Shown: one piece after another, positions 651 to 64,000 of the stretch | Position numbering within the stretch: the first letter of the stretch is position 1 | Layout of the letters: every line of letters begins with the position of its first letter | DNA from: Jaapia argillacea MUCL 33604 | Taxonomy: Eukaryota; Basidiomycota; Agaricomycetes; Jaapiales; Jaapiaceae | Direction of reading: 5' to 3' | DNA length: 64,000 nucleotides | NCBI GenBank assembly: GCA_000697665.1 | Contig: KL197732.1 | Coordinates: 184,316-248,315, forward strand | The notes under the pieces: model-generated | Told to the model about the DNA's origin: nothing | Databases searched by the model: none | The model's input: the letters and a program-made list of their open reading frames with translations, nothing else | Program-made: the position numbers and the translations under genes

Positions 651-1325
651 TAGTGGGTCTTCCCGATCGAAGTGGAATTTTGAAGTGGTTGGCGGGAGCG
701 GCAAAGGAAAGTGCTTTGTGGCCCTCTGATGGAACTTATTTGGGGGTTCATAACTAGACCTTGTCATTGCTCGATTCATTTAGTTTGTGGGAGGCTGGAG
801 TATTTAAGTACGGTCGATATTGTCCGACGCCAATGATGTTATATCATGATCGAGGAGGACTTGGTACACAACAAGTTGCCGGCCATCGTATTCCTGTATC
901 GTCCGCACCTCTACCACCGCCAATCTTCAAACGCGTACAAAAATTGTTTCCTCATCGTTCTGATCTCCAAGTATTGTCAAAAAATCCGTCCACATCGACC
1001 ACATCTCAGCCAACAACAAAAGGACTTGACGTCCATTCCATGCCAACGACTACGTCCAACAGGCATACAATTACATCCATCACCACACCCTTCTCGTCAT
1101 TACGAGCGCACAAGTAGCGACGGTGAAGACAAATACCTAGGCTAGCAGGGCACGAGGAGCATCTTCTCGTACTTATCGGGAGTCACAGGAGATCAACAAC
1201 GTGAGTTTGGGTCGTCCTTTGTTCTTTCATCTTCGTGGAAGCACTGCAACGCAGCTCTTTATCTTACCCCACCACCATTCTTTCTTTCTCTCCCTTTCTA
1301 TTCAAGACGTTCGCTCTATCGCTCC
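651..1325. other. intergenic, no gene seen
   Basis: Between the decayed F-box fragment and the large F-box gene. Short open frames on both strands are low in fungal-protein character. The 3' end (about 1255-1315) is pyrimidine-rich (CTTTCTTTCTCTCCC), as is common just upstream of basidiomycete start codons, so the promoter of the 1326 gene probably lies here. Confidence 0.5.
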
Positions 1326-4300
1326 ATGTCAGGGCTAACGCGTGCGGCTATCTGGCCAGGCAGTTCGATTGGTTCTCCACCGTCGGCCATGCCTTCGTCG
1401 ACTCCAGGTGCTTCAGGTTCGGGTTCAGGTGAAGGATCCTCGTCAAACCCGCCACCCTCAGCTTCTGAGAACATACCCATCGAAATCTGGTCCCACATTT
1501 TCTCTTCCCTCTCCTCGTCTCCATCAACCCTCCACTCTCTCTCCCTCGTCTCCCGCCAATGTCACTCCATCGCCCAACCAATTCTCATTCGTAATCTCAT
1601 CTGGAACGACCCAGTAGCAGTCGCTCGCAATATCCCCTACTGGCCACCAGGTCCCACCGGAACCAACCAAAACCAAATCGGAGACCCAACCCTCATCCGT
1701 TCCCTAATCTTCTCCCTCTCCCCAAACCGTACCTCATCTCCCCCAAATATAACCTTACCAAACGCCCAACACCCCAACGCAGCTCTAGCACACGAAACAC
1801 CAACCCGTCCTCGATTTTCAGACCCTCTCCTCGTTTCCCTCCGAAGTCGAATCTCTCACCTCCATACCCACCTACACGACCACGATACCGACACCATAAC
1901 CGCCATACGCCGGAGGATGGCGCGGAGGGACTTGGAGATGAGAGAATACAGTGTCCATGATTATTTGGCGTTTAGGGAACCGGAATTGGTCGCCGACTCT
2001 AACCTCTACTCCGCCGCTTTCAATCAACTGGCCAGGTTCACCAACCTTGACACTTTGGTTTTTAGGAATATGGGATTACCACCTAATCTTTTCGAAGTGG
2101 TACATTCCTTACCTAACCTCGAGCGGTTACACATCCAAGCGTGTTTACTCAGTCCTGCGCCAGGAGGCGCTGGTGCTCTAGCGTATTTGGATCATAGCAC
2201 TTTGGGTTTGAGAGAGTTGACGCTTTGGGGTTTGGGAAATCTTGGATATGGGGATAACGTTCAGGTTTTGTTGTTGGCTACTGCGAGCGGGTTGAGGACC
2301 CTCCGTGTAGATTCTACAGCAGACGTTTTTGGGATGTGGGTATCGTTAGGCGGACATGTCCCCCTCCAACCTCAACCTCAGCCACCCATCGTACCAATCC
2401 AAGGACTCGCTCACCCCATGCTCCCTCACATGGCTCTAAACCCCGCTCCCGTCCCTGTCCCTGCCGCTCCAAACCAAAACCCAGCGCCACTCGCACCCTC
2501 ACCAACCCTAACACTCTACCCCCACCCGACCCGCATCCCACGAACCCTCGCCCACGTATCAATGCGAATGCCACCCTTACCTTACGACAAGTTGTTAAAC
2601 TCGTCTAAACGGTTCCTTCATTCGTTCTTTGATTTTTTAAAGTGGTTGCCAAGGGAAGTGGAGTTGGAGAGGTTGGAGATGAGCGCGCCTGTTAGACCAC
2701 CTTATGATTTGCCTGGGGGGTGTATACCCCGTCTTAAATTCTTTCGGGGGCCTTTGAATGCTGTTTTGGCTGTTCTCGGTGGTGGTGCGTCTGGTTTGGG
2801 GGAAGGGGAGCAAGGAGCAGGAGGAGAAGGAGAAGGAGAAGTGGAAGTAGAGATTGTAGGGAGCGAGCCGGAAGAATGTGAGGATGGGTGGCATGAAGAG
2901 TTGGAAAGAGCTGATACCTTTGGAATGGGACATCATCATCATGGGCATGGGTTTGGTGTTGCCCCTGGCGGTGGTGGTGGGGGAGGTGGCGGGTTTCAGT
3001 GGCATGCGGGGGGGAATAAGAGTGTTAGAGCTAGTGATGTTACTTTGGTTCTTGGTATGTTCTTTCTCCCCTTCTCCCCTTCTCCCCTTCTCCCTCCGCT
3101 CCTTGCGCCATCTCCTCCGCCACCTTTAATCGTATTGAGCTGATTTGGGTTTCCCATAGGCGCCTTACCCACTCCCCATCGCGTGACCCGCTTAAGCGTG
3201 AGGATTCGCGAGTTGACTTGGGACGACGAGTTGTTACATTGTGTTGGGTGGGTATTTGGACCTGCGTTGAGGGCGTTGGAGATTGCTTGGGGGGTTGGAG
3301 AAGTTAGGGATGTGAGTTCGCCTTTTGATTCTTTCTTTTGGGTCCATACCGTCTTCTGTTGATACTAGCATTTCGTTGTCGTTTTCGTTCATTATCACCT
3401 TTGTCATTTCATTAATCGTCACATTTGTCGTGTTCATCCCTCACCCCCGAAGCTAATATACTTCTCTTTCGGTATGGATATAGGACACACTAGTAACGTT
3501 AGGCGCCGAACACCTAACTCGTCTCCCAAACCTCCAATCCGTACAACTCTACCGCATATCTTCTGGTCCACACAAACGCAAGTCAAACAGACCTCCTCCG
3601 GGCCTTTTCCATCGTTTCCATGATTCCGACGACGACGATTCTGACGACGAAGACCATGGACACGGCCAGCGTCAAGTAATGGACGACGAGTACGTTCGTG
3701 AGGCGTCCAACTATCTTAACCAGGCAGTAGATGAAGCACCCCAAAATAGCTCTGGCGAAGAGGAAGCAGAAGATGGATGGGAGGTTGCTCGTCGAGTCCC
3801 TGTTTCGTCACGACGACAGAGGGAGAGGAATCTTTGGGTTGGGGCCAGAGGGAGGGGAGAGGGGAGGTATGTTAATAGGGAACGAAGGAGGGTTAGGAGA
3901 GGCTTGTTGGGGGGTGGGATGCGCGGAGGTGGGCGTGGGCGTGTGGGGCTTGGTGGAGGTATTGGTCCGCATACGATGATTCCCGCAGACATTGGGACAC
4001 ATACGACAACTCTGGAAGAACAACCGGCTACTGGTGTCCGACGCCTCGGACGTATCGCTGTTCAGACACGGGAACAACGACCCGAAATACACTCATTACT
4101 CTCACCCCAAGAACGCGCCGTCGAAGATCAGGATCTTCGCGTTGAACGTCTAGCAGCTCAACTCAGGAGTGCAGAAGCCGAATTCAATGCTGCGTATGCT
4201 GCTATGCAGTCACGCAGTGATGTCCTACATGATCGTGGTCTTGATCGTAACGTCCCTGCTGGGTATACTGAGGAGGAAGCTAGGTTGATGGCCGAGTTCC

Positions 4301-12628: not shown

Positions 12629-15229
<2,601 letters not shown>

Positions 15230-18427: not shown

Positions 18428-19947
18428 TCACGAACTCCCATCCGCTCGCTTCACCAACTCATGCAACCGATCCGCCATCCCACTCGCAACCCACTCATCA
18501 TTCACATGCCCATCAACTTCCACAACCTCAATCCCTTTCCCTCCCTCCTCCAAACCCTTCTTCAACTCCCGTACCAACGCCCCATCAGCTTCTTCATCCC
18601 AGAACACCCCTCCATCTACGTCAATCCCGCTCCACCCTTTCTTGGGTACCATGACCATACACAAATCAGGCCTAACACAAAACTCGTTCAGTCTCTTCGC
18701 CATCGTTCTTCCCATCTCGGCGCACTCTGAAGGGGAGGTGCGGAGGAGGGTTATGGAAGGGTTATGAACGTGTAAGGTTCGGGGAGGGGACGAGGATGTG
18801 TAGTGGGAAGGAACTGTTGATCGGGGACCGAAGTTGGCCATATCCAGAGCGCCGAGAGAAATTACTTGGGGTATGGATGATTTGGACGCAGCTGTTAGTC
18901 GGGTTGGGCCTGCAGAGAGGATACCTCCACATTGCTCATCTGCCAGTTCGGTTGTCGTGAGGTCTAGCACCGCATCGAACCACTGCACCGAAGAGGCATT
19001 ATCGTCAGTCATATCACGATGATTCATATGGGGATGGTTCTGCACCTTCTCCTCGATGAGCCTCTCCATCGTCCTACCTCCACTTCCCGTACAATGAAAT
19101 ACGACGGGTTCGTATAACCTTTGACCTGTCTCGTCGTCTTTGAACGATCGAAGGCGGTCACAGGCTGCGGTCACTCCTGGTGTGGTGAGGCCGAACATCG
19201 TTACGGCCACGAGATGTTTTGGTGAGTCCTTCATGTCTGGAGAGTCATCCTGGGGCGAAGCAGAGTTAGTCGAGAAGTAGGCATGCGCCATCCCCGCCAT
19301 TGCCGATGCTGCATTTGTGAGAATGAGAGAAGAGAGGATGTTTAACGTCCCAGAGATGTCGACTGTTAAAATCGAACAAATGGCATTGAGCTGAGTTTAC
19401 TCGAATGGACGGGGTATGGGAGCATACCGATGGAAGGCATCAAACAAATATCACTATCCCCGACATACGCACTCACATCCCCACTAGCCATCGTCGAAAC
19501 GCAAATCTTGGGTAACCCAATCTTGACGCCTCTCATCACCTCACAGACCAACGCGGTAGTGGTCGACCCTCCGAGCCCCATCAATCCGTGGATTCCACTT
19601 CCTTCATGAGAGGAGTTGATGTAGGACTGAACGAGGGATTGAGTTCCTTTCGTCATGAATTGGAGAGCTTCGGAGCGGGGGAGGGAACGGATGGTTTCGA
19701 GGGATGTTCCTGCTGCTGAACATACTGATGCGGGCGAGTGGGTGGAGGTTGGAGAGGGCTCTCCAGCCTGGGTTTGTACGATGGTCGGTCAGTATTGGGC
19801 CTGGAAACGACTGGGGGCGAAACTGACCTGAAGGGAGACGTCGATGAGGATGACATCACAACCTTTGGAGACTAGAATGTCTCGGACGAAGACATGTTCA
19901 GCCTCCTTTGTATCCAGGAAACCTATGAGGATGACTTGAGGACGCAT
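18428..19947 (-). CDS. UPF0261 / Tm-1-like ATP-binding domain protein (464 aa)
   Basis: Three exons on the minus strand: 19947-19828, 19767-19428 and 19362-18428, closing to 464 aa. The start MRPQVILIGFLDTKEAEHVF matches the conserved beginning of the UPF0261 family, followed by SKGCDVILIDVSLQAGEPSP, the Gly-rich GLGGSTTTALVCEVMRG, MASGDVSAYVGDSDICLMPS and DISGTLNILSSLILTNAASA. The C-terminal half has VTMFGLTTPGVTAACDRL and FHCTGSGGRTMERLIEE. The plant member of this family, tomato Tm-1, binds a viral replicase; the original enzymatic role is unknown. In plants, and in bacterial neighbourhoods, this domain goes with a PEP-hydrolase-like TIM barrel. Here the barrel is a separate gene at 45302. 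The 3' end faces the secreted-protein gene with 184 bases between them. Confidence 0.92.
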
Positions 19948-25535: not shown

Positions 25536-26890
25536 CATAAGACAAATCTGAGGTAGGGGAGAAGCCGTCAGAAGAAAAGGAAGAGAAGAGGTGAGTGGAA
25601 AAGTAGGAAAAAGACAGGGGGGAAGAGGTAGGTAAATGATCATTGGCAGAGTAGGTGAGGGAGTAAATGAAAGGAGAATGGGAGGATGAGTTGGAGTATG
25701 ATAGGGAAAGGAAGAGTGAGGGAGGCATCATGGGAATGGGAGAGGTATAGGTAGAGAGGGAGGGAGGGAGGGAGAGAGTGGAGGGAGGGAGAGAGTGGAG
25801 GGAGGGAGAGAGTGGAGGGAGGGAGAGAGTGGAGGGAGGGAGAGAGTGGAGGGAGGAGAGAGTGGAGGAGGAGAGAGTGGAGGAGGAGAGAGTGGAGGAG
25901 GAGAGAGTGGAGGAGNNNNNNNNNNNNNNNNNNNNNNNNNNNNNNNNNNNNNNNNNNNNNNNNNNNNNNNNNNNNNNNNNNNNNNNNNNNNNNNNNNNNN
26001 NNNNNNNNNNNNNNNNNNNNNNNNNNNNNNNNNNNNNNNNNNNNNNNNNNNNNNNNNNNNNNNNNNNNNNNNNNNNNNNNNNNNNNNNNNNNNNNNNNNN
26101 NNNNNNNNNNNNNNNNNNNNNNNNNNNNNNNNNNNNNNNNNNNNNNNNNNNNNNNNNNNNNNNNNNNNNNNNNNNNNNNNNNNNNNNNNNNNNNNNNNNN
26201 NNNNNNNNNNNNNNNNNNNNNNNNNNNNNNNNNNNNNNNNNNNNNNNNNNNNNNNNNNNNNNNNNNNNNNNNNNNNNNNNNNNNNNNNNNNNNNNNNNNN
26301 NNNNNNNNNNNNNNNNNNNNNNNNNNNNNNNNNNNNNNNNNNNNNNNNNNNNNNNNNNNNNNNNNNNNNNNNNNNNNNNNNNNNNNNNNNNNNNNNNNNN
26401 NNNNNNNNNNNNNNNNNNNNNNNNNNNNNNNNNNNNNNNNNNNNNNNNNNNNNNNNNNNNNNNNNNNNNNNNNNNNNNNNNNNNNNNNNNNNNNNNNNNN
26501 NNNNNNNNNNNNNNNNNNNNNNNNNNNNNNNNNGGAGGGAGGGAGAGAGTGGAGGGAAGAGGGGGAGAGGGAAGAACTTGAAGGAGATTTCATATAAGTG
26601 GAAAGAAGGAAGGGAAAGGTGGAAAGGAAGAAGGGGAAGGTGGAAAGGAGGAAGGGGAAGGGACTGCAGAGGGAGGTGAGGAGTGAAAAGCTCAGAAGAA
26701 TAGAGGGATAGAGGTGTAAGGAGGGTAGAAATGAGGTGAGGACAGATGAACTTCCAAAGAATAGGTGGATGGAGGAGATGGAGGGTGGAGGAAAGGAAAG
26801 GGAACAGATCAATGGTGGTGGTGGTGGGGGGGGGCAGATGGCTGGGAATAAGGGAGAAGGAGGGGTAGGAGAGAGGAAGAGGGCCAATTG
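25536..26890. repeat. polypurine tract with minisatellite and internal assembly gap
   Basis: More than 1.3 kb of almost pure A/G on the plus strand. From about 25757 to 25855 a 17-base unit GGAGGGAGGGAGAGAGT repeats about five times, then a 15-base unit GAGAGAGTGGAGGAG repeats about four times up to the gap. The right side resumes with the same 17-base unit at 26534 and grades into irregular GGGAAGGTGGAAAGGA blocks and a run GGTGGTGGTGGGGGGGG near 26815. All the long open frames across it are artefacts of composition and of the gap. G-rich runs could form quadruplex or triplex structures. Confidence 0.9.
25916..26533. other. assembly gap of 618 N
   Basis: Unsequenced bases inside the purine minisatellite. 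The repeat unit is the same on both sides, so the gap most likely contains further repeat copies and its true length is uncertain. Confidence 0.98.
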
Positions 26891-28389
26891 ATAAAAACAT
26901 AACCAAGTGAATAGGGCTGCCTGTGAATGAGGTATCTAATCTGGAATAGACCCTCAGTAAGAATGACTCAGATGAAGTGTACATTGTCTGAATCGGACCC
27001 TGATACTGAGAGTTGAAAGCGAGGTCAACAGGATGAGCTCGAGCTCAAGACTTTCGCATCATGATTCGAAACGGGCAGAAGAGTCTCACGGATAGCTCAC
27101 GGTTGACTCGTTTCAGTATGTACTTCTCACGCATAGCTCGCGACCAAACAACCGCAAGCCGCGTCGCTGAGTCATCAACGGGATTTTGGACCACCTGGTA
27201 TATTCGGTGTCGCAAGCTCCACCAAAAATCACTTTCCAGTCATTTCATTCCATGCTTTGCCTTCGTACGTGCCTCAAGCGAGGTTAGTGGAAGGGAGCCG
27301 AGCACGGCCTGTCGCGAGACGACGCTGAACTTGCTCGGGAGGGAACGTCCCAACGTTGGTCGATGTCTGGTTTGCGTCCATCGGATCCAGCGCGAAGGTT
27401 GCCTCGATGCCACACTGCTCTCCCTGAGGGATGTCAATTTGCTGAATATCTCCAAGTTCGAAGGTGTTGGACTAGAGCAAGCATTCCACCGGAACTTAAA
27501 GACTGTCGTCATGACGCTCGCTAGCGAACAGAGCCTGGAAGCCTTTAGAATGACTGACATCGCAGGGAATCGCGAACGGCAAGTATAATCCACGTATAAT
27601 CTAGCCTACATGAAATTCGAAGTTTAACGATGTATATGCGTTCTCTGAATGATCCCAGCCGGAAGCAATATCCAGTAAGTAACCGTGAGTCTGGTGACCA
27701 AAGATACCGTCCACCAGGAAGTTCAAACGGTTGCGCTCATGATCGGAAATCATTGGTCAAGCTTGAGAGGTGAAGCCCAGGGAGAGTCCGTACGTGAAGT
27801 TTGAACGAGAGTCCCTTCAACTGAAGGGTCCGGGTGAAGGTATGCGGCCTCAGCCAGGAAACTCGACTAGGGGGCGGTCTGGTGACGAACCTTGTCCCCT
27901 GTCGTCCTCAATCTCATTCTTGAATCTTGTCACCATCTTGACTTCACCCAGAAAGATCGCACTCGACGATTGTCCCATGCGCATGAAGATCATGAGGAAA
28001 GGCCTGAAATACTATCGGGCGGATTTTGGGTCGGGGGCCGCCTATGCAAGAAGGCATCCTGTCACACCAACTCCGTGATTATGTCGGAAGTTGAAACTGT
28101 CATGTAAGGTTCGGGGTTTGTGATTTCTGACGACCTTCAATGTGACTTATCAGCCATTATTAGGTCCACGATAAGGCGTGATAAGGTATGTTCAGATCCC
28201 AACCTGGAAACAGAGCTTTGAAAATTCGGACAAATCTCTGACTGGTGTTGTAGTGCATATGACTGTCCGTCGAATTATCTGCGCCTCGACCTGTGTTAAC
28301 ACCGGGTATTTCAGCCAGCCATAGGAGGCGGCCGTGAGTAGGCGGCCGTACTGACCCTACGAAACTGAACACCGTCCAGGAGTCGAACT
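26891..28389. other. gene-poor region with a doubtful minus-strand coding remnant
   Basis: On the minus strand around 27480-27250 there is a stretch with protein-like wording (FELGDIQQIDIPQGEQCGIE, FALDPMDANQTSTNVGTF, then PPEQVQRRLATGRARLPSTN), interrupted soon on both sides. No start, splice sites or family could be assigned. The overlapping plus-strand frame 27061-27588 looks random. The remaining 27600-28389 shows nothing I recognise. Confidence 0.3.
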
Positions 28390-28835
28390 AGGACCCCTGA
28401 TAATCCCGGTAAAGGTCAGTCTGGGATTTTTTTGGACCTGTCCGGACGGATATCTCAGCAATAGCTGCCAATATGTCCGGACCCGCACCCAACATCAGAA
28501 ATAGGTGGATTTTTGTCCGGGTCCTGAGACATACCTAAATTTTTTTCCCAGGTCCATGGGTACGTAAAATTGCTATATACGGCAATAAATTTACCATATT
28601 TGGTTGCGACAGTTGGGGGGGTCGTACCAAGCGTAACTAAGGTCAAAGTTACAATTTTTGTCCGGGTGGGGGACTGACCTGACTGGCTGTGGTCCACTTT
28701 TTGTCCGGGCTCTCACCCTGACATTTTTGGGATTTTGGTGTGATTTGTGTCCGGATAGCGCCTAACCTCCCACTGCGCGGGGCTGATTACTGTCCGGACC
28801 GTGGACTTACATATACCACGATTATCAGGGGTCCT
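28390..28835. mobile_element. 446-bp hAT-like MITE with 16-bp TIRs and 8-bp target duplication
   Basis: AGGACCCCTGATAATC at 28390-28405 is mirrored perfectly by GATTATCAGGGGTCCT at 28820-28835. Immediately outside lie GTCGAACT at 28382-28389 and GTCGAACT at 28836-28843, a perfect 8-bp direct repeat as hAT transposases make. The interior has no open frame of note. It carries seven copies of TGTCCGG in the same orientation (28439, 28474, 28514, 28659, 28702, 28748, 28791), three of them preceded by T-runs. Arrays of short subterminal motifs are typical transposase-binding sites of hAT elements. Non-autonomous; a mobilising partner is not in the window. Perfect TIRs and target site duplication suggest recent insertion. 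Confidence 0.8.
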
Positions 28836-28843
28836 GTCGAACT

Positions 28844-29248: not shown

Positions 29249-30738
29249 ATGTCTTCCACTGACTCCAGCATGCCTATCTCCGGTTGGGTCTGGACGGACG
29301 AGTTGGTTCAACTCACGAGATGGCTTGCAGCAGTCCCAACGATCGCTGCTATTCTGGCCGCTCTTGTCGTGCTGGGACTCGCGCTTCGCTTGTACCTAAA
29401 CAGAGACAGGAGGCATGCATTACGACGGCAAAGTTTCCTAATGCTTCTCTCAGTACTTGCTATGAGTATCCCTTACAGTGCTGCGTACTTGTAAGTTGAC
29501 CTCCCTCTGCACTCCTCCAAGTAAGCTCGTTCTCACCAGAAGGACGGTAAGAATTGAAACTTTCTTGACTGGACCGTCCCCGTGGTGCGCGGTATCGATG
29601 TTCGTTGCGATTCTGACCGGTTTGTATTTCCCCTTCTAAGAGGCCAGACACTCATCGTTAGTATCACGAACAGGGAATTTCATTCAGTTCGTTGTTTCGC
29701 TCATCTCTGTGAACCTGCAATTGGTCTTCGTACACGGTGTCCGAACGGAGAGGTTTTTGAAGTGGTATCTGACAGCGTCCTTGCTTCTCTCGATTGCCAC
29801 TTCGCTACCTCCAAGTTCGTATCTCTTACCCCTATCTGTTCCCGTTGATTCACTTATTGCAAAATATTAGCCGCAAAGGGCGTCTGGGGCTGGGATCCCC
29901 TGCTCGATTGTTGCTATGTATCACTCGTTAATCCAAAGGAGCGACGTATGTGGCAAATCGCGGCGCTGTATTTCTGGTCCCTTCTCAGCGCGCTGGTGAC
30001 CTTGGTTTCGACATCGACCATCCTCGGAGCCCTGGTATCCCATAGTTTGCATCGGCGCCGGGTTCTGAGCCTGACTCAAAGAACTCACAATAACGTATTC
30101 AATGGGACTGCTGTTGCGATTGCTTGGAGGATCACCCTTTACCCATTGATCCTGAGTATGTCTTCCTTAATCGTACCGGTGACCACCATTCGTGCGACTT
30201 ACCTGTTTGACATAGTCGTTTTGACTGCGGTATCTACAGCTTCTGACTTCAGCACTGACAAGTCACTTGGAATTTCTTCACGGTCGGATTTTGTCGTACT
30301 GTGCGTCTACTCCTTCTTCTACGGTGCCCAACCACTGCTCTATGCTGTAGTGGCGATTTTTGTGGAGTAAGTTTTCTGTTTCTCTGCAGCGATGGTCTTT
30401 TTATACGTACTTATTTGAACAGTCCATCGTTCTCAGGAGCCGTCCGCCAGGTCATAAAGTCCGATATAAGCAGCGTTCGGTCCTGCATTTCCGGCTGTCA
30501 CACATCAACAGGTTCCTCTGTCAGTTCCTTGAGAGAACAAGATGAACGGCAGCCTTCTGCCAGACAGTCGAATTTTCCCACAGTTACTTTCGATCTACCA
30601 CAGCGTCCCGATCACTCGCACATCAATGGGAAGACAGACAGTACGGTGTCATCGGCAACTCCTTGTCGAAGTCGGGAGCATGGATCAATTTGGAGCACTA
30701 TTAGAACCGCATCTGAGGAGGAATATGACCAAATGTGA
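29249..30738 (+). CDS. seven-transmembrane receptor-like protein (424 aa)
   Basis: Five exons: 29249-29490, 29540-29619, 29674-29814, 29871-30366 and 30423-30738. Phases 2, 1, 1, 2 close the frame at 424 aa. The ATG at 29249 (MSSTDSSMPISGWVW) is preferred to an earlier in-frame non-ATG start. Hydrophobic segments in order: AAVPTIAAILAALVVLGLAL, MLLSVLAMSIPYSAAYL, PWCAVSMFVAILTGNFIQFV with VVSLISVNLQLVFVHGV, FLKWYLTASLLLSIATSLPP, then after the extracellular WGWDPLLDCCYVS the segments QIAALYFWSLLSALVTLVST, AWRITLYPLILSMSSLIVPV and VVLCVYSFFYGAQPLLYAVV. The order and the Cys-bearing loop resemble fungal G-protein-coupled receptor-like proteins. A Ser-rich cytoplasmic tail of about 105 residues ends the protein. 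Ligand unknown. A fragment of the 3' end is duplicated at 33.58-33.7 kb. Confidence 0.8.
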
Positions 30739-31349
30739 AGTCCAGCATTTGGTTTGCATTAGTTGACAAACCTCCACCCTTCGCTCGGTACAGTCCTTCC
30801 AGAGTGTACTGATGTATTTTCACGACTTGGATATATCTCTCCGCGTTTACGATGGTGTTGGTACGATTCGTAAGACGAGCCAATAACGAATATAAGTGTT
30901 TGTACATGAAGTTCTTCTCTCTGAAGAATATCATTCGTGAGCTCTCAATCCTCCGCGAACTTGAAGCCTTGTGAGACTCTACGGCCAAAATCCAGCTCGC
31001 CGTCACCAACACTTCATATCTCGTACTGGATGGAATGTCGGGCGATGGCTAGGCGCTACTAACCGCTTGAGCCTTGGTCCCTCCTTCCCGGATTACTGGC
31101 ATTAAGTATGCACAATCATATTTGCAGGCTCGCGAGACTTTGGCCATTATGAGAATGGGATCTTCCTGATTCGAAAGCCAGGGCGCTACTTCGTCCACAT
31201 ATAGCAAAGTTCAAACGGAGTAGTACAGCATGGCAATGCAATGAGACCGCCAGTGCCAAGCCCACGACGTCTAGGTAGACGCTCGCGAGAGTTCTTCCTG
31301 CCCACCGGACTGCCGTCATCCCACTGCTCAATTGCTCCCTTTCTTTGAT
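30739..31349. other. spacer between receptor and kinase genes, part of the duplicated unit
   Basis: No gene. The sequence, including CCTCCTTCCCGGATTACTG near 31080 and the stretch just before the kinase ATG, recurs in the second unit at about 33.72-34.35 kb, so it belongs to the tandem duplication. Confidence 0.5.
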
Positions 31350-33521
31350 ATGTCCTCTACCAAAATCCCAGATACGTTCGTCATTCCACCTCTAGAAGTC
31401 AACATAGACTTTGGGGCTGGCTTGGGGGGAGGTGGATTTGGGACGGTATATCAAGGTCACTGGCGGGGACATCTTGTTGCGGTGAAGGTGTTGGAGAAAG
31501 GACTACCGTCCAAGGTGACCTCGTGTAATGACAGGTATACATTCTCCGATCTGACCTATCGGGTGCAGCTGCTTCAGAGGGAGGTCGATGTTTGGAAAAA
31601 CCTCCGCCACCCAAATATTCTCGAATTCTACGGGGTTTGTACCACCGCAAATCCTCCCTTCTTAGTGTCTGCTCTAAAACGTGAAGGCCATGCATTGGAC
31701 TACATCGAGAATCATCCGGATGCGAACCGGTTGAGAATAGTGAGTTCCGATTGTAGCAGTCTCATCGACTTCGCGTTGATGGCATCAAGTTCTATGAAGT
31801 GTCCCTTGGTTTATCATATCTCCACGCTCATTCTATCATACATGGTGACCTCAAAGCAGTGAGCTTTCCCCTCCGCCAATCGCCCATCGTATCGGAGTAA
31901 ACATATATACTAGATGAACATCTTGGTAGATGAACGCGGGAGTGCTTGTCTCTCTGATTTTGGTCTATCGCGCGTCAGAAAACACAGTATTTCGACACTT
32001 AGACCTGCAAGCAACCAAACTCCACAAGGGACTCTTCGTTGGATGGCCCCGGAGCAGATGTCTAGAGGCGTTACTAATAAGATGTCTGACGTGTATAGTT
32101 TTGGGATGACGATGTACGAGGCAAGTATCTCCTTCTGTAATTTGATGTTTCACCACTCAATTCTTGTGTTTAACACAGCTTCTCACTGGAGAGGCTCCTT
32201 TCGCCAATCTTCCTGACCCGGTGCTATATGTTGTAGTCATTGATCGACAAGAGTGCCCATCACGCCCCGAGGACCTTCAGCGCATCGTAGGCGAACTCGA
32301 CAATGCTACATGGAGTCTCATTAGTGAGACCTGGAACCGAATTCCCGCAGAGAGGCCAACGGCTGAAACGTTAGTTTCCGCCCTCGAGAAGCTATCCTCG
32401 GCGTGGAGTTCAGGCTCGGCGGGGATAAACCCAGCACTTGGTCGTCCTTCTTGTTCCCGACTTGACTTTCTCTCAAAGGGAACCGATGAAGAAACGGTTT
32501 CTGATAGCGCTGATGCGACTCCTGGTGAACTCGTGGCGCATTCACAGAGATGGCCCGGCGGTAACTCGTCTGGCAGGGTGACTAGACTTACTTTTGACTC
32601 CCACATTCTGTGAGGCCGCTCTTCAACAATTTCTTGGATTCTGTTGACCTATGAACTTATCTCAAGGAGGTCGGTTGCCCTCGAGAACCTACCTTCAACG
32701 TGGAACGTTGGCTCAGCCGGGCCTGAGACTACGAATGTAATTTCCGGATATTTCGATGATAACTCATCTGATAGGGTGACGAGACTCAACTTCGACTCCC
32801 ACATCCCGTGAGGCTGCTCCCTCCTACAGTCGTTTGGTTTTTTTTGACCTCTCAATTATCAAGTAGGTCCGTGGGCTCTTCTGGACCACAAAGTTCGAAT
32901 GAGACTTCTTCGTCAAACGGCCTTCCACCAGGAAATCTGACTTCAGTCCCCAAACAAAGTTTTACACCTCGACTTCTTCGAGTTTCCGAGCATCAAGTAT
33001 ATTTCCAGCGTGGCGTCGATGCTCTCGACGCTGTGGTTCAGACATACTTCCATGGGGAGACTTTCACCTTGCCTCCGAGAAGCAGTTTCGCACTTTCCAT
33101 AGTCTTCGATAAGCCACAACTTGCCATGGAACTAGGGTTATCCTCGATGTTCCGCAATTTCCCCGTCATCACACCCCGGGATCAAGACGCTTTTAACGCT
33201 CAGGGTACCCATCCAGAGTGGTTTGAGGTAGCTGCTGCGAGCTCGGATCCGATGCGCCTGAGGACCTCTCGGTTTCGCTGTCACATCACATTTTCGTATG
33301 ATGCCCATAGAAGCAAGTGGGCTGTTACGAATGGAGGAAACGTCCTCGATACTTGGGTATGTGTTGATGTCAGGGGCGTGCGGATGGATTTAGACCTAGA
33401 CGCCTTCAGAGGTGGGCTGAATACAAGGATGAGGAAGGGTCCGCTACCGTTCAAAGAGCTTAATACATGTTCGCCTAGATGCAGGAAGTTCATGCGAGAC
33501 CATGACATCGATATCGTGTAA
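31350..33521 (+). CDS. protein kinase with repeat tail and unassigned C-terminal domain (613 aa)
   Basis: Seven exons: 31350-31514, 31569-31739, 31790-31858, 31914-32120, 32179-32609, 32667-32807 and 32864-33521; all phases close at 613 aa. Residues 20 to about 265 are a kinase of the tyrosine-kinase-like type expanded in Agaricomycetes. It has the glycine loop GAGLGGGGFGTV, Lys46 in VAVKVL, Glu60 in LQREVDVW, the catalytic HGDLKAMN (Asp132), DFG at 150-152, RWMAPEQM and SDVYSFGMTMYE. All catalytic residues are present, so it should be active; HGD instead of HRD is common in this group. The intron after exon 4 begins with GC (AG|GCAAGT). Residues 270-395 contain two copies of a module ending SSxRVTRLxFDSHI, each closing an exon at the same phase. 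The last 180 residues (from QVYFQRGVDALDAVVQTYFH) form a domain I do not recognise. A decayed duplicate follows. Confidence 0.85.
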
Positions 33522-34353
33522 ACGTTTGATGTACACCCTAGTCACCGTTCCATCCCACCCATGAAGTGTAAATACTTATCGGTCCCTTCTCAGCGCGCTG
33601 GTGACCTTGGTTTCGACATCGATCGTCCTCGGAGCCGTGGGGAGTATGGACCAATTTGGAGTATTATTAGAACCGCAGAGTCTGAGGAGGAATACGACCA
33701 AATGTGAAGTCCAGTGGCATTTGGTGTGCATTACTGTCGCCAAAACCCTTATTCCCTTCGCTCGGTGACGTTGTCTCCGAGTCTTTGGGAGTGTAATAAC
33801 GTCGACTTGGATACGTCTCTCCACGATTTTGGTACGACTCGTATGATACGGATTCGTAACTTGAAGATGAGCCGATAATGAACATATTTATACAATGGAA
33901 ATCTGAGTTCTGCATCGAACTCTGAGCCCGCCTTATAATTACGTACTGAAATATTGTGGCGATGGATCTTGAAGCTTGAAGCTTGACCGCGGCTTGGCCC
34001 TCCTTCCCGGATTACTGACATCCAGCACGTATGTGCAATCATAATGTTACGCGTAAGTATGGAGTGGTTGCGAGCAGTGGCCAAATTAAACCAACACAAC
34101 TGACAGATTGTGCAGACTGAACAGCCCGAGACCTTCGCTGGCAGTACTAATCACTTATAAGAAAGGAACCCTCCTCGATTGGAAAGCTTGGGCGCTATTC
34201 CGTCCACATATAGCAAAGCTCAAACAGAGTACAGCATGGCATTGCAACGAGGCCGCCAGTGCAGAGCCCACAACGTCTAGGGTAGACGTTCACGAGTGCT
34301 CTTCTTGTCCACAAGTCAGCCGTGATTCCACTCAATTGCTCCCTTTCTTTGAT
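33522..34353. repeat. start of second tandem unit: truncated receptor 3' end plus spacer
   Basis: About 33580-33640 repeats a piece of exon 4 of the receptor gene (GGTCCCTTCTCAGCGCGCTG at 29978 and again at 33582). It then jumps, skipping roughly 640 bases, to the copy of the receptor stop-codon region (AGGAATACGACCAAATGTGA, about 33690). The following spacer matches 30.74-31.35 kb. The copied receptor is only a remnant. Confidence 0.75.
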
Positions 34354-36467
34354 ATGTCCTCTACAAACATCCCGGATACGTTCGTCATTCCACCCCTAGA
34401 AGTCAACATAGACTTTGGGGCTGGCCTGGGGGGAGGTGGTTTTGGGACGGTATATCAAGGTCACTTGCGGGGACATCTTGTTGCAGTGAAGGTGTTGGAA
34501 AAAGGACTACCACCCAAGTCTTGGTGTCTGCTCTAAAACGTAAGGGCCATGCATTGGACTACATCGAGAATCACCCGGATGCGAACCGGTTGTGAATAGT
34601 GAGTTCCGATCGTAGAGCTCTCATCGTGACTTCGCGTTGATGACGTCGCTCAAGTTCTATGAAGTGTCCCTTGGTTTATCATATCTCCACGCTCATTCCG
34701 TGATCCATGGTGACCTTAAAGGAGTGAGCTTCCCTCTCCGTCCATCACCCATCATATTGGAGTAACATTTATGCAGATGAACATCTTGGTAGACGAGCAC
34801 GGGACTGCTTGTCTCTCTGATTTTGGTCTATCGCGCGTCAGAAAGCACAGTATTTCGACACTTAGACTTGCAAGCAATCGAACCCCACAAGGAACTCTTC
34901 GCTGGATGTCCCCAGAGCAGATGTCGAGGGGTATAACTAATAAGATGTCGGATGTATACAGCTTTGGGATGACGATGTACGAGGCAAGTTTCTCCTTCTA
35001 GAAGTTGACCTCCTACCACTCAACGATTGTGATGGACGCAGCTGCTCACTGAAGAGGCTCCATTTGCACATCTTCCTGATCCGGTGCTATATGTTCTGAT
35101 CATTGACCGACAAGAGTGCCCATCACGCCCGGAAGGGCTTCAGCGCATTCTCGGCGATCTCGAAAATGTCACATGGAGGCTCATTACTGAGACCTGGGAC
35201 CGAAATCCCACAGAGAGACCAACGGCCGAAACGTTAGTCTCCACCCTCAAGGAGCTATCCTCAGCATGGGTTTTAGCCTCAGTCGAGATAAACCCAGTAT
35301 CGGATCCCCTCCGTCGCCCTCAGCTTGACCCACTCTCAAGTGGAACCGATGAAGGAACGATTCCTGAGAGGTCGGACGAGACTCCTGGAGAACTGCAAAG
35401 ATATTTCAGCGATAACTCGTCTGGCAGGGTGACTAGACTTGATTATGACTCCCACATTCCGTGAGGCCGCTGTTCTATGATTATTTGGTTTCTGACGTAT
35501 CATCAAGGAGGTCGGTCACCCTCGAGAACCTATCCTCAATGTGGAATGTCGGTCCAACCGGGAGCGACCCACCCTCAGATTCTCCACGTCGTTCTCGACA
35601 TGACAATCTCGAAACTACGCCCTATAAAGCAACGATCCCTGAGAGCACGAATCCGACTCCTGGAGAACTTGTGGCCCAGTCGCAGAGATATTTCGATGAT
35701 AATCCGTCTGGCGGGGTGACGAGACTTAACCTCGACTCCCACATCTTGTGAGGCTGCTCGCTTCTACCGTCGTTTCGCTTTTGTTGACCTGTCAGATTAT
35801 CACGCGGGTCCGTCGGCTCGTCTGACCCACATAGTTCGAATGAAACTTCGTCAAATGTTCTTCCATCCGGAAAGCTGACTTCAGTTCCCGTCCAAAGTTT
35901 CACGCCACGACTTCTTCAAGTTTCCGAGCATCAACTATATTTCCAGCGTGGCGTCGATGCCCTCGACGCTTTGGTTCAGACGTACTTCCATGGGGTGACC
36001 TTCACCTCGCCTCCGGGAGGCAGTTTCGCACTTGGCATAGTCTTCGATAAGCCACAACTTGCCAGGGAACTAGATCTATCCTCGATATTCCGTAATTTTC
36101 CCATCACAACACAAGAGGATTTTAGCGCCCAGTCTGCTATAACCCATCCAGAATGGTTTGACACAGCTGGTGCGAGCTTGGATCCGACGGCAGCGAAACC
36201 AGTGCGCCTGAGAACGTTTCGATTTCGTTGTCAAATCACATTTTCGTATGATGCCCATAGGAGAAAGTAGGCTATATCGAATGGAGGAAACATTCTTGAT
36301 ACTTGGGTATGGGTTGATGTCAGGGGCGCGTGGATGGATTTAGACCTAGAAGCCATCAGAGTTGATGGGGCGAATACAAGACCTGCGAAGGGCCCGCTAC
36401 CTTTCAAAGAGCTTGACACATGCTCGCCGAGGTGCAGGAAGTTCATGCGAGACCATAATATCGTGTA
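34354..36467 (+). pseudogene. decayed tandem copy of the kinase gene
   Basis: Closely matches the kinase gene at 31350 along its whole length. The copy starts identically (MSSTNIPDTFVIPPLEVNI), keeps the glycine loop and VAVKVLEKGLP, but then lacks about 160 bases that in copy 1 hold intron 1 and the alphaC-to-hinge region. The frame stops at 34536. Later parts survive: HGDLK near 34715, MNILVDEHGTACLSDFGLSR at 34776, the GC-AG intron after the VYSFGMTMYE exon, the C-lobe from 35042 and the repeat tail with DSHIP (35464) and DSHIL (35751). The C-terminal domain begins about 35930 and meets a stop at 36268-36270, where copy 1 has Trp, although the remaining sequence to about 36467 still resembles copy 1. 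With a lost regulatory helix and at least two stops it cannot make a full kinase. Confidence 0.8.
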
Positions 36468-36559
36468 GACGTTCGATGTACATCCGATCCTACCCATGAA
36501 GTGCAACCATCTAATACCCAAAATTATAGACAACCGAAACATTGCAGGGACCCCTCCCA

Positions 36560-38544: not shown

Positions 38545-40503
38545 CGAGGATTTTGAACTACAGGGTCAACCAGGACGAGCAGAGATGCGGGGAAAACGGG
38601 GGCTGCGTGGGGCAAAGAACCACAGTGCCAACATCAGGAAGAACATCGGATTGCTTTATGTACGGAAGCATGTTGTGGAGCGAAGAGAATGCAGCTGATC
38701 GACTGCACACCGGCAACAGCATCCTGGCTGAACAGTTGACTGGCTCGGCTATGGTCGGCCGATCACCGAAGTCTTCCCGGGCGTGCCGGCCGTCCCCTCA
38801 ACCGTGCTATTCCCTTCTCCGACGGCTACGGTGGTCGAAATGTCGCATACAGGTTTCAGCGTCGTTCAGTAGCGTTTCGTTCCTCCAATTCACTATAGTT
38901 TTTGTCATCCAGCAGCGCTCAGCATCGAGCGGTGCATGCTAGAAACAGTTATCGGCACCGGTTTCGTACACAGTACCGCTTCTAACGCCAGGTTGAGGCC
39001 TTATCGGCCTGGGGACAATCGACAGCAATGTTAATGAAGACACGAAGGGGCTTGAAGCAACATAGCGAGAAGGGAAGAACAGGAAAGTGAAACGAGAACC
39101 ACCGGAGTCGACTTGAGGGGGTATTTATGCGTTTCTCTGGTCCCTTCTTTCTTCCTTCTCACTCCAAAGATGTTTGAGCAGACAGATATATCGCGACCAC
39201 ATATCAACCAATCCCACACATTCATACTTCCCACATCTACTTGCCCTCATCCATGTGGTTTCGCTCGTATTCCGAGTATGGCATCCCTCGTTAGAGGAGG
39301 CCTGGGAGGTTACGAGGCATTCGGGGAATGTGAATGACGTTTCTGATACGCAGATGAAAGGCTTTCCATACCAAACGAAGGGAGCTGACAGGTCGCAAGA
39401 AGGAAAATATTTTTGCAAGTTACCTATCTGTTGCTCCCAGCTCATTGAAGAGCAGTTTCGGCCCCCTGGCTAGTTCGAAAGCCCTAGATGTAGATACGTG
39501 GGTTCATCAATACTTGTACCAGCTAGTATCGAAATACTGGGGACCAGATTTGATCCCAACCCAAGACTGGCGCAAGCAACGAAAGGAACACTCGCGGTGA
39601 TCCTGTTAAATCCAGACACCAACTATGAATATGTCCAGTTTGATAATTTGACTGGGGCTGTGTGACATGATCAGCAATCTGTTGGTTCCTTCGTCAATTA
39701 TAGAGATTTGACGAGCAAAATAACAGCCAGCGAAATCGCACCTTCAGTTAAAGGTGAGTTTGACTTTGGGTCGTGGGATCGCCACAACACTGGCCCAGAA
39801 AGGCAGGATCAGAAGCCCCCCTGACTTTCTCACGCACCACGGCCCACTGACAGTTCCCCCCACCACGTCTAGGAACTTTGGATCACGGCTTGGTTTACTG
39901 CGCTGCAGAAGCATTATACCGGCAGAATAGTTCCTGCCAACAGAGCCAGAATATTCGTGAGTCACCATGATGATGATGTAGTGAACAATATTAATGTCGG
40001 CTTTTTCGTCGCCCTCTGCCAGTCGAGTGGCGCACGATTGTTGAGACATATCCTTTCGGTGCGTGCCTTACCACATCTCTCAGCTCGATGCCTCAATTCA
40101 CGCAATTATCTGATCCTATCATGCGCTTTAGTGTGGGGACCGCCACGTTGTTGCATTTCAAGACGAAGACGCCTTGTCTCTTGTCACTGCTTCGACGCCT
40201 CTATACCCATTGGTGCGCTTGACTTTCAGAGTTTGGTGAGTCTAATTACCCGTTTCCCTGACAAAGAATTGACCCTTGTTCGTGAAAGTAGCTCGCAACT
40301 TATACTCCTGATATGGACTGCAAGCCTTCGCGTTTCCAAGGGCGACATTCCGGGACCAATGCATGCTAACTTGGGTTGAATTCGGCGCCTACGCCACCAA
40401 GTTCCGCAATGCGATGCACCTTCAGCTTAATCGGGCCTTCCCCAGACTTTATAAGACCCTGATACACACCATGCACACTCCCCACAACCCTCTGACTCTC
40501 GCC
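38545..40503. other. intergenic, nothing clear
   Basis: Nearly 2 kb between the start of the transporter gene (-) and the start of an F-box gene (+), so it should hold both promoters. The open frames here are short or overlapping on both strands (for example 38256-38942, an antisense shadow of transporter exon 1). The F-box frame extends upstream of 40504 to 40363, but the paralog at 54224 supports the later start. No repeats or RNA genes recognised. Confidence 0.4.
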
Positions 40504-42138
40504 ATGACCTCCTACCACAAACTTCCCGTTGAACTTTGGGCCCACATCTCTGGGTTTCTATCTCGCTCAGGTCTTTACAATGTCCTTCAAACGAATCGCC
40601 TCTTCCATGACATTGCGCTCCCGATCTTATATCGAAGCATCATCTGGAATGACCCAGTCGACGTCGCCAACCATCTTCCGTTCTGGGACTCCCATCCCGA
40701 AATGAAGCAGATCCCTCGTTCCCTCGTGTTTGCTGTATCTCCGCCTCGCTGCATCTGCGAAGAATTCGGCCCGCAAGTTGCCGTCGCTGACGGACGTACC
40801 AACGCCGCAATTACCACTGCTTATCGCGCTGACCTCAGATCTCACCACCTCGACCTACTTCCCCACTCCGCTACCCACTACACTCAATACGATCAACCTG
40901 AAGTATGCGCGTCGCCGCAACTTCACTATTTGATGTGTACCATGATCACTTCGTTCCAGCATTTGGAGATGTTGGCATTCCGCAACACGATACTTCCGGA
41001 GACGTTCTTCGCTACCATTCATAGTTTGCCTTCGCTGAGGACCTTACACCTTCAAGGTGTCATCCTCCCCGAATATGCCCCAGATTCTGTCCAAAACAAT
41101 CGCAATCTTCCTATCACCGAGCTCACCCTATGGGGTTTAGACAATCTAGAACCATCAGGCAATGCCAGATTCTTCCCCCTCGCCACAGCTTCGAATCTAC
41201 GCACTTTAAGAGTCGATTCCACCGCTCGTGTTTTCGCATGGATAATTAACAAGGAATTCACGGGCTCCGTCGTCGCACCCTCAAAACTTACCAACATTTA
41301 CTTGCGTATTTTAAAGGGTCAACCACACGATACGCTCTCATGCCCGGGACTATTTGTCATGTCTTTACTTTGGTTTCTTGGATGCCATGGGTCGGCTTTA
41401 CCCTTGGAAAGGCTGTCCATAAGTGGGTATGGACAAAACGTGGGCTGTCTATTCCCGGACGTCTGTCTTCCTCCGCTCAGCTACCTTCGTGTACCACTCG
41501 ACTTGATCGTTCCAATCCTCGGGAAAGCTTCTCAGAACCTCGAAAGTTTGGACATCAGCGAGGGAATAGTGTCCACGAGGGACCTAACTAACACGCTGAG
41601 TGAATTAGGGTGTTCGAAGAGCACGAGAAACTTGGGTTTAGCCTTGAAGTCCTGGGATGAAGCAATCCTGCCGGTTATCACGCAACTCTTCCCTGGTTTG
41701 AAGAGTTTGAAGATGACTTATTGGAGCTCCGATGGGCCGTGGATTGTTGAGCCACCGTCCGATGTGAGTGCCCTTCAGGTATCTTTGTGGGAATTCGGCT
41801 GCTGACTATTTGTTTTCTAGTTGCATTTGATCGGACCCAAATGCCTCGCACACCTCCGTAGCCTCGAAACATTCCAACTCTACTCCGTTAGCCCTCCCCC
41901 TGATCACTACATTCATCTTCCCCCGATCGCCCGTCAGCACCCCCTTGTATACGCAACTCAGTCTCAAATCCAATCGCGACCTTTCTTCGATGGAGATCAT
42001 AAGGTCAAGGATCTTTTAGCTGAGTGGAGTGAATTCTCGGAGTCTCTGGTTGAAGTCAAGTTTGAGCCGGCTCGAGTATGGAGGAGGGCAGGTCCTGGGC
42101 AAGAGTGGGACGTGCGAGCTGTTCACATCCCTGCCTAG
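40504..42138 (+). CDS. F-box protein with leucine-rich segments (525 aa)
   Basis: Two exons, 40504-41763 and 41821-42138. The start MTSYHKLPVELWAHISGFLS opens directly with an F-box and matches the paralog at 54224. Typical phrases: VLQTNRLFHDIALPILYRSI, IWNDPVDVANHLPFWDSH, LEMLAFRNTILPETFFATIH, ELTLWGLDNLE, LRTLRVDSTARVFAW. Exon 2 starts LHLIGPKCLAHLRSLETFQL and ends RVWRRAGPGQEWDVR. The intron position and both ends are conserved with the 52506-54224 gene, though sequence identity is moderate and this copy lacks part of the loop before the LRR core. It presumably acts as a substrate receptor of an SCF ubiquitin ligase. In-frame ATGs at 40363-40471 are possible alternative starts, giving up to 47 extra residues. 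Confidence 0.85.
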
Positions 42139-61887: not shown

Positions 61888-62753
61888 CTTGGTCGTAACC
61901 AGAGCTCCGCAGACGGGGAACGGGTCGGCAGAGGGGAGACTCTGGATGAAGAACAAGGCGTTTCATCCCGAACTACCCCGCTACTTATACGAGACGGGTG
62001 TGGATCGGTGGCTCAGTGGCTCTCAGTGGCCTCTTTGTGGAACCGGTCGTAAAGGCACAGCTCCCCAAGCGTGATCTCGCTTTGGTGATATTTCGTATTT
62101 GCACCTGGCCAAAGCCGGAATCACTGATTGCAAAGGGCGTCGGCCGTGTAAGGGTATCTAGCAGGACTTCCAGATATCTGACCAAGAGGGTATCCATTCA
62201 GCTTGAGGTTGTCCTCCGAGTTCATTCGTAATGGTCGTCGTCAAAAGCTGAAGTCACAGACAGCTGAGAGCCTGAACTTGGCGAGTTGGAAACGCCACCG
62301 GCAAGGTCCGTACCTGACATCCATCAACGTTTTGGGATTTCTTCTGCATCTATCATAGTTGCTACCCACTGTGTCCTCTACTCTTTTAGACCTAGTCGTC
62401 CGCTTGGCTAAGAACTTTGGTTAATATGACCTGGAAAGGTTGATTTACAAGCAAGGGTTTCAAACTTTACGGAGCAGCTTCTCGTACCAAGACGAGCCAC
62501 TTTGCGATGATACGCTATTTGGAGCGCCATTTGCTAGGTTGTTTCTAGAGAGTCTGCTGCTAAAATTCGTGTGCTGCAGATTCGAGAACTTGAAGCTTGT
62601 CATCGTGAGCCACGCCTCATCACGATCACGAGGCTGTGACGATCGTGTTGTATCGATGGCAACGGGCGCCTATCTTAACTCTGATAACTCCAAAGGTTTC
62701 CCAGCTCTTGTCGTTGGTTGATCGAGGACGTCTCAACCTCCGGGATCCTGGTC
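61888..62753. other. intergenic between divergent genes
   Basis: About 870 bases between the MIF4G-like start (-) and the F-box start (+). A tandem GTGGCTCAGTGGCTCTCAG near 62010 is an imperfect short repeat. No gene recognised. Confidence 0.4.
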
Positions 62754-64000
62754 ATGTCGGTCAGGGTGAAGTCATCCTGTAACTCACTCGCGAAAGGTCG
62801 ACCTCGTAGACCCATTCAGCCAGTCGACACGAATCTCCAATCATACGATCGCACCGACCCTTTCACGGCATTCAATGTCCTCAGAAAGCTCCTGGCCGGT
62901 CTTGTCTCACGTATCGGCGGGTGCCAATACAAGTTGACTCCCCAGGAACATAAACTCTCCATCCATCTTCTCAGCATTGTCGAACCCTTTGTTGGGCTTT
63001 CACCCTCACAGCGCACCATCACCCAACAACCTACGGAAATCCTCGATGCTATTGTCTACCATCTCGACTCGAAACGCGACCTGCTGGCATTGGGTCTCAC
63101 TTGCCGGCGCCTTCACGGTATCGTATTCCCCCGTCATTACGATTATCGAATCATCCGGTGCAAAGTTAGTTCCATCCGAGTATGGAACCACCTCGTCGTC
63201 CACAAGTCGTTGGCTCGCAATGTCAGACGATTGGAGATATTGGACGAACGCTCGTCGGGACATGAGTTCATTCCTCGAGGTATCTTGACGTCCGATACTG
63301 ACCTTGAGTCGACCGACGATGAACTCGGAATGCACGTTAAGCAAGAACGGTATCTCGTTGCGGCGTTGCTGAAGATGACAGCTCTGCAGTCATTTATCTG
63401 GTCTTGCAATCATTCGCCGATGTGTATCGACGATGTATGGCCCACTCTTATGAAGTTTCAGTCCCTCAGGGAAGTCGAAATCAACGATAATCTCGTGTTC
63501 AGTGGGAGTCGTCGGGAGGAGGGAGCGAGTGAACCCACCACCAAGGCTCGAGTACGCCCTTTCACCATTGATGTGGTAACAGCGACAACTTACTTCACAC
63601 ACAGATGCTCGATCTCAAGAACGTGAGCCTACGTGCTACAAAGCACTCGTATGGCTCCACCAAGAATCCCGATCTCATCCGTATCTTCAATCTTTTGAAT
63701 CAATGTCCTATTCTCGAGGTAGACACACCCATTGAAACAACCTCCGCCATCTCACCGATTTGTTTCCCAGTCCTTATCTGTTGGCTACGATCGCCCTAAC
63801 GGGATCGGCTACTCGAATCCTCTCGCAGATAACTTCTTCCTCTGCGGTAGATGGCCTCTTCTTCGCACACTCGTTCTTACAAACCTCAATTGCACATACA
63901 ATCAAGGCCGCGAAGTTGCATCGACGTTCTTCCTCGCTCATCCCAACCTCGAAGTACTTCACATCGATATCGGGTTTCACGTCCCCAATCCCGGAGGAGG
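62754..64000 (+). CDS. F-box protein, 3' end cut by the window
   Basis: Exons 62754-63575, 63605-63718 and 63771 to beyond the window. The protein starts MSVRVKSSCNSLAKGRP. Its F-box begins near residue 90 (QQPTEILDAIVYHLDSKRDL, LALGLTCRRLHGIVFPRHYD), followed by VWNHLVVHKSLARNVRRLEI and a leucine-rich domain (LLKMTALQSFIWSCNHS, LMKFQSLREVEIND, MLDLKNVSLRA, FNLLNQCPILE, WPLLRTLVLTNLNC, FFLAHPNLEVLHIDIGFHVP). Two very short introns (29 and 52 bases) are inferred from frame continuity; the first is unusually short, and its donor GTAACA is imperfect, so it may instead be a longer intron with a different donor. This subfamily (F-box preceded by about 90 residues) differs from the 40504/52506 pair. 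C-terminus not visible. Confidence 0.8.

Follow-up and report, generated by a model that had tools for sequence, protein, structure and literature searches.

A Jaapia argillacea kinase gene with duplicated linker exon ends and a C-terminal domain of no recognized family

The kinase gene and its surroundings

The window is a stretch of 64,000 nucleotides of contig KL197732.1 from Jaapia argillacea MUCL 33604, with a gene on the forward strand at 31350-33521. Splicing of its seven exons gives a protein of 613 amino acids with a frame that is open throughout and usable splice sites, and places the residues named in the preliminary description at the positions named there. The six introns are 50-58 nt each; five are GT-AG and one is GC-AG. 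Exon 1 (31350-31514) carries the start codon, the glycine-rich loop and Lys46, exon 2 (31569-31739) Glu60 in helix C and the hinge, exon 3 (31790-31858) the HGDLK catalytic loop with Asp132, and exon 4 (31914-32120) Asp150 of the DFG motif and TLRWMAPE, after which comes the GC-AG intron (32121-32178). The kinase domain ends in exon 5 (32179-32609), which continues into a first linker module. A second module, duplicated from the end of exon 5, forms exon 6 (32667-32807). The rest of the linker, a C-terminal domain of about 180 residues (32976-33518) and the stop codon lie in exon 7 (32864-33521); the segment beginning QVYFQ starts at residue 439. An in-frame TGA directly after the exon ending in FDSHIL had been considered a possible objection to splicing. 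It is the automatic outcome of a phase-2 GTGAG donor, which dictates such a triplet, and thus provides no argument against splicing.

The kinase domain is complete (Pfam PF07714, residues 20-273, E 4.6e-48). As claimed earlier, all catalytic residues are present: K46 (AVKV at 44), E60 (REVD at 59), D132 (HGDLK at 130) and D150 (DFG at 150). The glycine loop and APE motif that, with these residues, define protein kinases of PF07714 and PF00069 are found as well, and HRD is replaced by HGD. At E<=10 the only Pfam families matched over the 613 residues are of kinase type, all on the kinase part. The protein carries no NACHT or NB-ARC domain in Pfam and is therefore not a fungal NLR, and the approximately 19 residues ahead of the kinase match leave no space for the N-terminal four-helix bundle of MLKL. 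In the PDB, 675 distinct sequences matched the kinase part at E<=1e-20; the best 60 of these range from an EGFR chain (4.4e-44) through a Src/Abl ancestor and CTR1 down to B-Raf and others at about 4e-31, which fits a TKL or TK-like kinase. Diagnostic patterns of tyrosine kinases, as given in the consulted part of PMC3937382, are AARN, XP(I/V)(K/R)W(T/M)APE and GXR(L/M). None of the three is present in the window kinase, which at these sites has DLKAMN instead of AARN, TLRWMAPE without the first proline, and PSRP, with proline after the arginine. The lack of tyrosine kinase residues combined with proline at the fourth place of motif 3 (PSRP) agrees with the sequence features listed for FslK kinases in that part of the paper, features that other TKL kinases could also display. 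The enzyme is apparently active and probably cytosolic, and would belong to the tyrosine-kinase-like Ser/Thr type that has expanded in mushroom-forming fungi.

Downstream of this gene (copy 1), the block 29976-33538 recurs in pieces at 33581-36485 and includes a tandem second kinase copy at 34354-36468 on the forward strand. This copy lacks a stretch matching 31515-31659, which takes in part of exon 2 including the helix-C glutamate, and it has an in-frame TAG at 36268, inside its C-terminal domain; it is therefore a pseudogene. In its last intron the aligned acceptor AG is changed, and another AG lies nine bases upstream. Comparison of the two window copies gave a dN/dS of 0.16 for the kinase (bootstrap 0.09-0.27, based on 200 codons of exons 1 and 4 and a portion of exon 5) and of 0.42 for the C-terminal domain (bootstrap 0.25-0.68; 187 codons), both values including the branch of a pseudogene. 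Since one copy has decayed, the intact copy may be more strongly constrained than these values show. The C-terminal domain behaves like a true coding part.

A membrane-protein gene, earlier described as a 7-TM receptor-like gene, is located upstream at 29249-30738, also on the forward strand. Two of its ORFs gave no Pfam match at E<=0.1, and it has two paralogs that lie in tandem on contig C4 (622694-626436). The tandem duplication carried mere broken pieces of this gene along with the kinase: remnants of its 3' part are found at 33581-33766 (forward strand), where 29976-30035 and 30671-30789 recur at 95% and 82% identity. Further upstream are a repeat element at 28390-28836, with copies at C36:96785 (98% identity), C17:384858 (91%) and C25:86202 (80%), and, at 25643-26935, low-complexity ORFs with GGRE-type repeats that flank a run of undetermined bases. 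Elsewhere in the window an ORF with a UPF0261 C-terminal domain (Pfam 3.8e-72) occupies 18431-19396 on the reverse strand. Three F-box-like ORFs lie at 1146-3140, 40312-41802 and 62688-63623, of which one slightly exceeds the Pfam cut-off and two fall slightly short of it. Consecutive ORFs for spermidine synthase and the C-terminal part of saccharopine dehydrogenase share the forward strand at 13160-14786; in basidiomycetes these two genes are fused.

The C-terminal domain and the linker modules

The preliminary description could not place the C-terminal region in any family, and this was borne out by searches of Pfam, NCBIfam, PHROGs and the PDB, none of which gave a significant match. No Pfam entry matched the C-terminal 194 residues at E<=10, and the same threshold gave nothing for the domain in NCBIfam or PHROGs. 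The sole PDB sequence match, RWD domain 2daw, had an E-value of 1.7 and was judged to be chance. A three-row profile pointed to DPH3/Kti11, a CSL zinc finger, with PDB E-values of 0.29-0.38; the cysteines of the matched stretch are not kept, and this match was also attributed to chance. Two AlphaFold2 runs, with mean pLDDT values of 33.0 and 34.2, produced no usable model and so gave no support to the compact shape assumed in the preliminary description. An origin of the domain from any other frame of the kinase-TPR loci introduced below was not found in their DNA (best tblastn E 0.93). Pattern-matching stretches on bacterial or archaeal contigs (15) and viral contigs (5) were not confirmed in a single-protein scan, which detects close relatives only. 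Our literature search found no description of the domain or of the linker motif, which does not prove its absence in print.

In the 43.7-Mb genome the whole domain occurs at two places at E<=1. When the threshold is raised to E<=10, the N-terminal part is found at three places and the C-terminal part at two. The loci are the window gene, its decayed tandem copy and a fragment on contig C36. The C36 paralog retains only the beginning of the domain and then diverges (53 aligned columns with 35.8% identity, E 8e-4 when searched among the fetched loci); in the genome-wide search this fragment had an E-value of 0.065. If the domain is limited to a few fungi, it would be a candidate for a new fold.

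The linker is rich in serine and threonine and includes two modules in copy 1, no more. Exon 5 ends with SSGRVTRLTFDSHIL and exon 6 with SSDRVTRLNFDSHIP, each followed by a phase-2 GTGAGG donor. The first module is the 3' end of the exon that completes the kinase, and exon 6 is a shorter relative of the 3' part of exon 5. When the two exon ends are aligned together with the introns that follow them, 87 of 111 bases are identical (score 82), far above the scores of 300 mononucleotide shuffles (27 at most), which shows that they are real duplicates. The duplicated stretch comprises an exon end, the intron and the start of the following exon. When exons of the DSHI type were counted within this genome, as the preliminary description had proposed for homologs, each window copy had two and the C36 paralog one, exon 5 of the latter by similarity adjoining the start of the last exon. 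Thus, the number of modules varies even within this small group. A motif-exon unit of the C21 paralog was duplicated separately (100 of 118 bases identical, a figure without a shuffle control), and exon duplication has apparently extended linkers more than once. The earlier proposal that the tail can grow in this way agrees with the module counts, the duplicated exon ends and the separate event in C21. All five module introns of the window/C36 group begin with a phase-2 GTGAG donor, so that retention of a module intron leads to an immediate in-frame TGA.

Related kinases in the same genome

Searching the J. argillacea genome for kinases gave 155 matches; each exon is counted separately, and unrelated kinases are included. 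Eleven stretches around kinase matches were fetched and the downstream regions of eight were read. Among the matches listed, the best after the three family loci are kinases on C60 and C21, with 51-57% identity per exon. These belong to a set of paralogs (C60, C21, C22 and C24:14k) in which a kinase is followed by a linker and TPR-like repeats, and the nearest of them have kinase exons approximately 45-63% identical to those of the window gene. Related kinases cluster on C60, from about 43k to 138k of this 139-kb contig, and several of them have TPR repeats.

TPR-like units were found behind the kinase in seven of the eight loci read (L039, L040, L041, L042, L044, L045 and L046) and were not seen in L043, whose contig ends there. 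Pfam TPR_10 was run on ORFs of four of these loci; L041, L039 and L040 scored above the cut-off (4.2e-15, 3.3e-12 and 2.8e-08 among these) and L045 below it, and the calls for the remaining loci are based on reading by eye. In one ORF of 723 residues the kinase end, four linker motifs and the TPRs follow each other uninterrupted. Neighboring TPR units of L041 are identical at up to 38 of 45 residues, and successive units in the other three loci at no more than 27 of 45. Unlike these paralogs, the window protein has no C-terminal TPR repeats (Pfam, E<=10) and instead carries the orphan domain. In the window gene and the C36 paralog, this unrelated domain of about 180 residues thus occupies the position that TPRs have in the relatives.

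A related linker motif occurs in six of the eight loci read. Instances are SRQITTIHY (twice in C21), SRTITSLHYSDR, FRTVTSLHYSNH and similar segments, with the consensus [VI]Tx[LI]x[YF]; the constancy of the threonine is partly circular because it was required by the initial search pattern. With a motif model in which one locus at a time was left out, the linker motif ranked top in all six contributing loci and was not top-ranked in L042, L043, L047 and L048. A nine-motif model applied to 80,051 12-mers gave ranks 8 and 53 to the modules of the window gene and ranks 1 and 31 to those of the pseudogene copy; an unrelated window peptide came second, with a score of 12.9 versus 13.7 for the first. 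The C36 module ranked 14 of 11,909. Alignments of whole linkers with four paralogs exceeded shuffled controls in none of eight comparisons (83 to 614 of 1000 shuffles reached the score), so the tie to the paralogs rests on the motif model and on the position of introns. A phase-2 GTGAG donor lies close after eight of the 11 displayed motif instances, five from the window/C36 group, two from C21 and one from C60_43k. Locus C24_14k has a candidate phase-2 GTAAAT donor after the motif, and two C22 instances do not fit. No donor lies near the three instances of L040 or the four of L041, and the position at an exon border is therefore not general. We conclude that the linker motif of the window gene is probably related to that of the paralogs. 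The layout of motif and donor shared with C21 and one C60 paralog suggests that the design may predate the window/C36 branch.

In a rough FastTree phylogeny of kinases of this genome, built from query-anchored rows that include some intron read-through and leave out many of its kinases, the window copies and C36 were grouped with a support of 0.999. Its neighbors in the tree are distant kinases from this genome, with those of C21, C60, C22 and C24 placed on the opposite side. In this tree the window/C36 group appears as a sister or early branch. The TPR kinases may thus be its sister group, in which case loss of TPRs need not be assumed.

Possible roles and comparison with known systems

TPR repeats are usually binding modules. 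The location of the orphan domain at the TPR position of the relatives therefore suggests that it is an input or binding module. In the mechanism that we infer, this domain would sense or bind a partner and control the kinase, and the kinase would provide the output. In the linker, the recurring [VI]Tx[LI]x[YF] motifs could be (auto)phosphorylated or act as docking sites, and exon duplication would alter the number of such sites. If either module intron were retained, translation would stop immediately and the product would be a kinase that lacks the C-terminal domain. We are far more confident of the architecture than of this mechanism; the reading as a whole, an FslK/TKL-type Ser/Thr kinase with a sensing or binding domain and threonines in the linker that are phosphorylated or docked, is in our view about evenly balanced between right and wrong.

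The preliminary description instead proposed a private output domain. The C-terminal domain would then be an effector of the kinase that is released by phosphorylation of the linker to act, which is in agreement with the constraint on it (dN/dS 0.42, pseudogene branch included) and with its place behind a Ser/Thr-rich linker. Yet, in the related kinases that position is taken by TPRs, which are normally binding modules, and no family or fold points to an activity. This makes an effector role unlikely; the lack of a match for the tail among the families searched stands, and its designation as output is weakened. It is also doubtful that copy 1 is of little importance, a member of a young and decaying duplicate family kept temporarily after duplication. 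Such decay would explain why one of the three domain loci is a pseudogene and another has only a domain fragment, and the dN/dS of the domain is rather high. However, the splice sites of copy 1 are usable throughout, its 613 codons are open and the kinase dN/dS is only 0.16.

The linker repeats could alternatively be amyloid-like aggregation motifs as in RIPK and fungal NLR pathways, with clustering of the kinase as the switch. They are short and repeated, with alternating hydrophobic positions, and amyloid-like motifs have been reported in Agaricomycete NLRs in the accessible part of PMC9815663. In the window gene, however, the motif is placed between the kinase and the C-terminal domain and its version is charged, and we regard aggregation as very improbable. 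Least credible is a side-by-side receptor-kinase pair formed with the upstream membrane protein, as the preliminary description had suggested for a lineage-specific signaling pair. The two genes do adjoin on the same strand. On C4, however, the paralogs of the upstream gene are approximately 300 kb or more from the kinase positions among the matches listed (231787, 322245, 1041854 and 1566703), the two fetched paralog loci contain no kinase match, and the 11 stretches fetched around other kinase matches yielded no relative of the upstream gene (E 0.01). Only pieces of it were kept in the tandem duplication. These observations speak against the pair, which we consider hardly probable at all, and the membrane-protein gene is probably a neighbor outside the kinase system.

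Returning to the orphan domain as an input or binding module, a more elaborate version can be formulated. An undescribed domain would act as sensor in the place of TPRs, the module introns would form a built-in switch in which intron retention halts translation and frees the kinase from the C-terminal domain, and exon duplication would tune the number of threonine motifs. We consider this full combination quite unlikely. In the accessible part of PMC3937382 the function of the kinase expansions of mushroom-forming fungi is given as unknown. Paralogs with a common kinase and linker and a differing C-terminal domain offer a handle on these expansions, and the exchanged domain should reveal what is sensed or bound.

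Among known systems, the window gene is apparently a variant of the FslK/TKL type. With FslK, a fungi-specific lineage near the tyrosine kinases, it shares complete kinase residues, the lack of residues diagnostic of tyrosine kinases and the proline at the fourth place of motif 3, a likeness based on motif criteria and not on placement in a clade (PMC3937382, consulted part). It differs in its extra C-terminal domain, which matches none of the libraries searched; extra domains are recorded there in only 16 of 241 FslK members. TKL-type kinases are likewise numerous in Laccaria bicolor, to be compared with the 155 matches found here, which are counted per exon and include other kinase types, but a tail architecture of this kind is not described in the consulted part of PMC2838846. 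The C-terminal TPR units of the paralogs recall fungal NLRs with TPR sensors (PMC4986451, PMC9815663 and PMC10197012, each in the part consulted), whose recognition repeats are strongly alike among themselves according to the first of these. Of the paralogs only L041 seems to approach this degree of likeness, with up to 38 of 45 residues identical between neighboring units, and the window protein differs from these NLRs in having neither a NACHT or NB-ARC domain nor TPRs.
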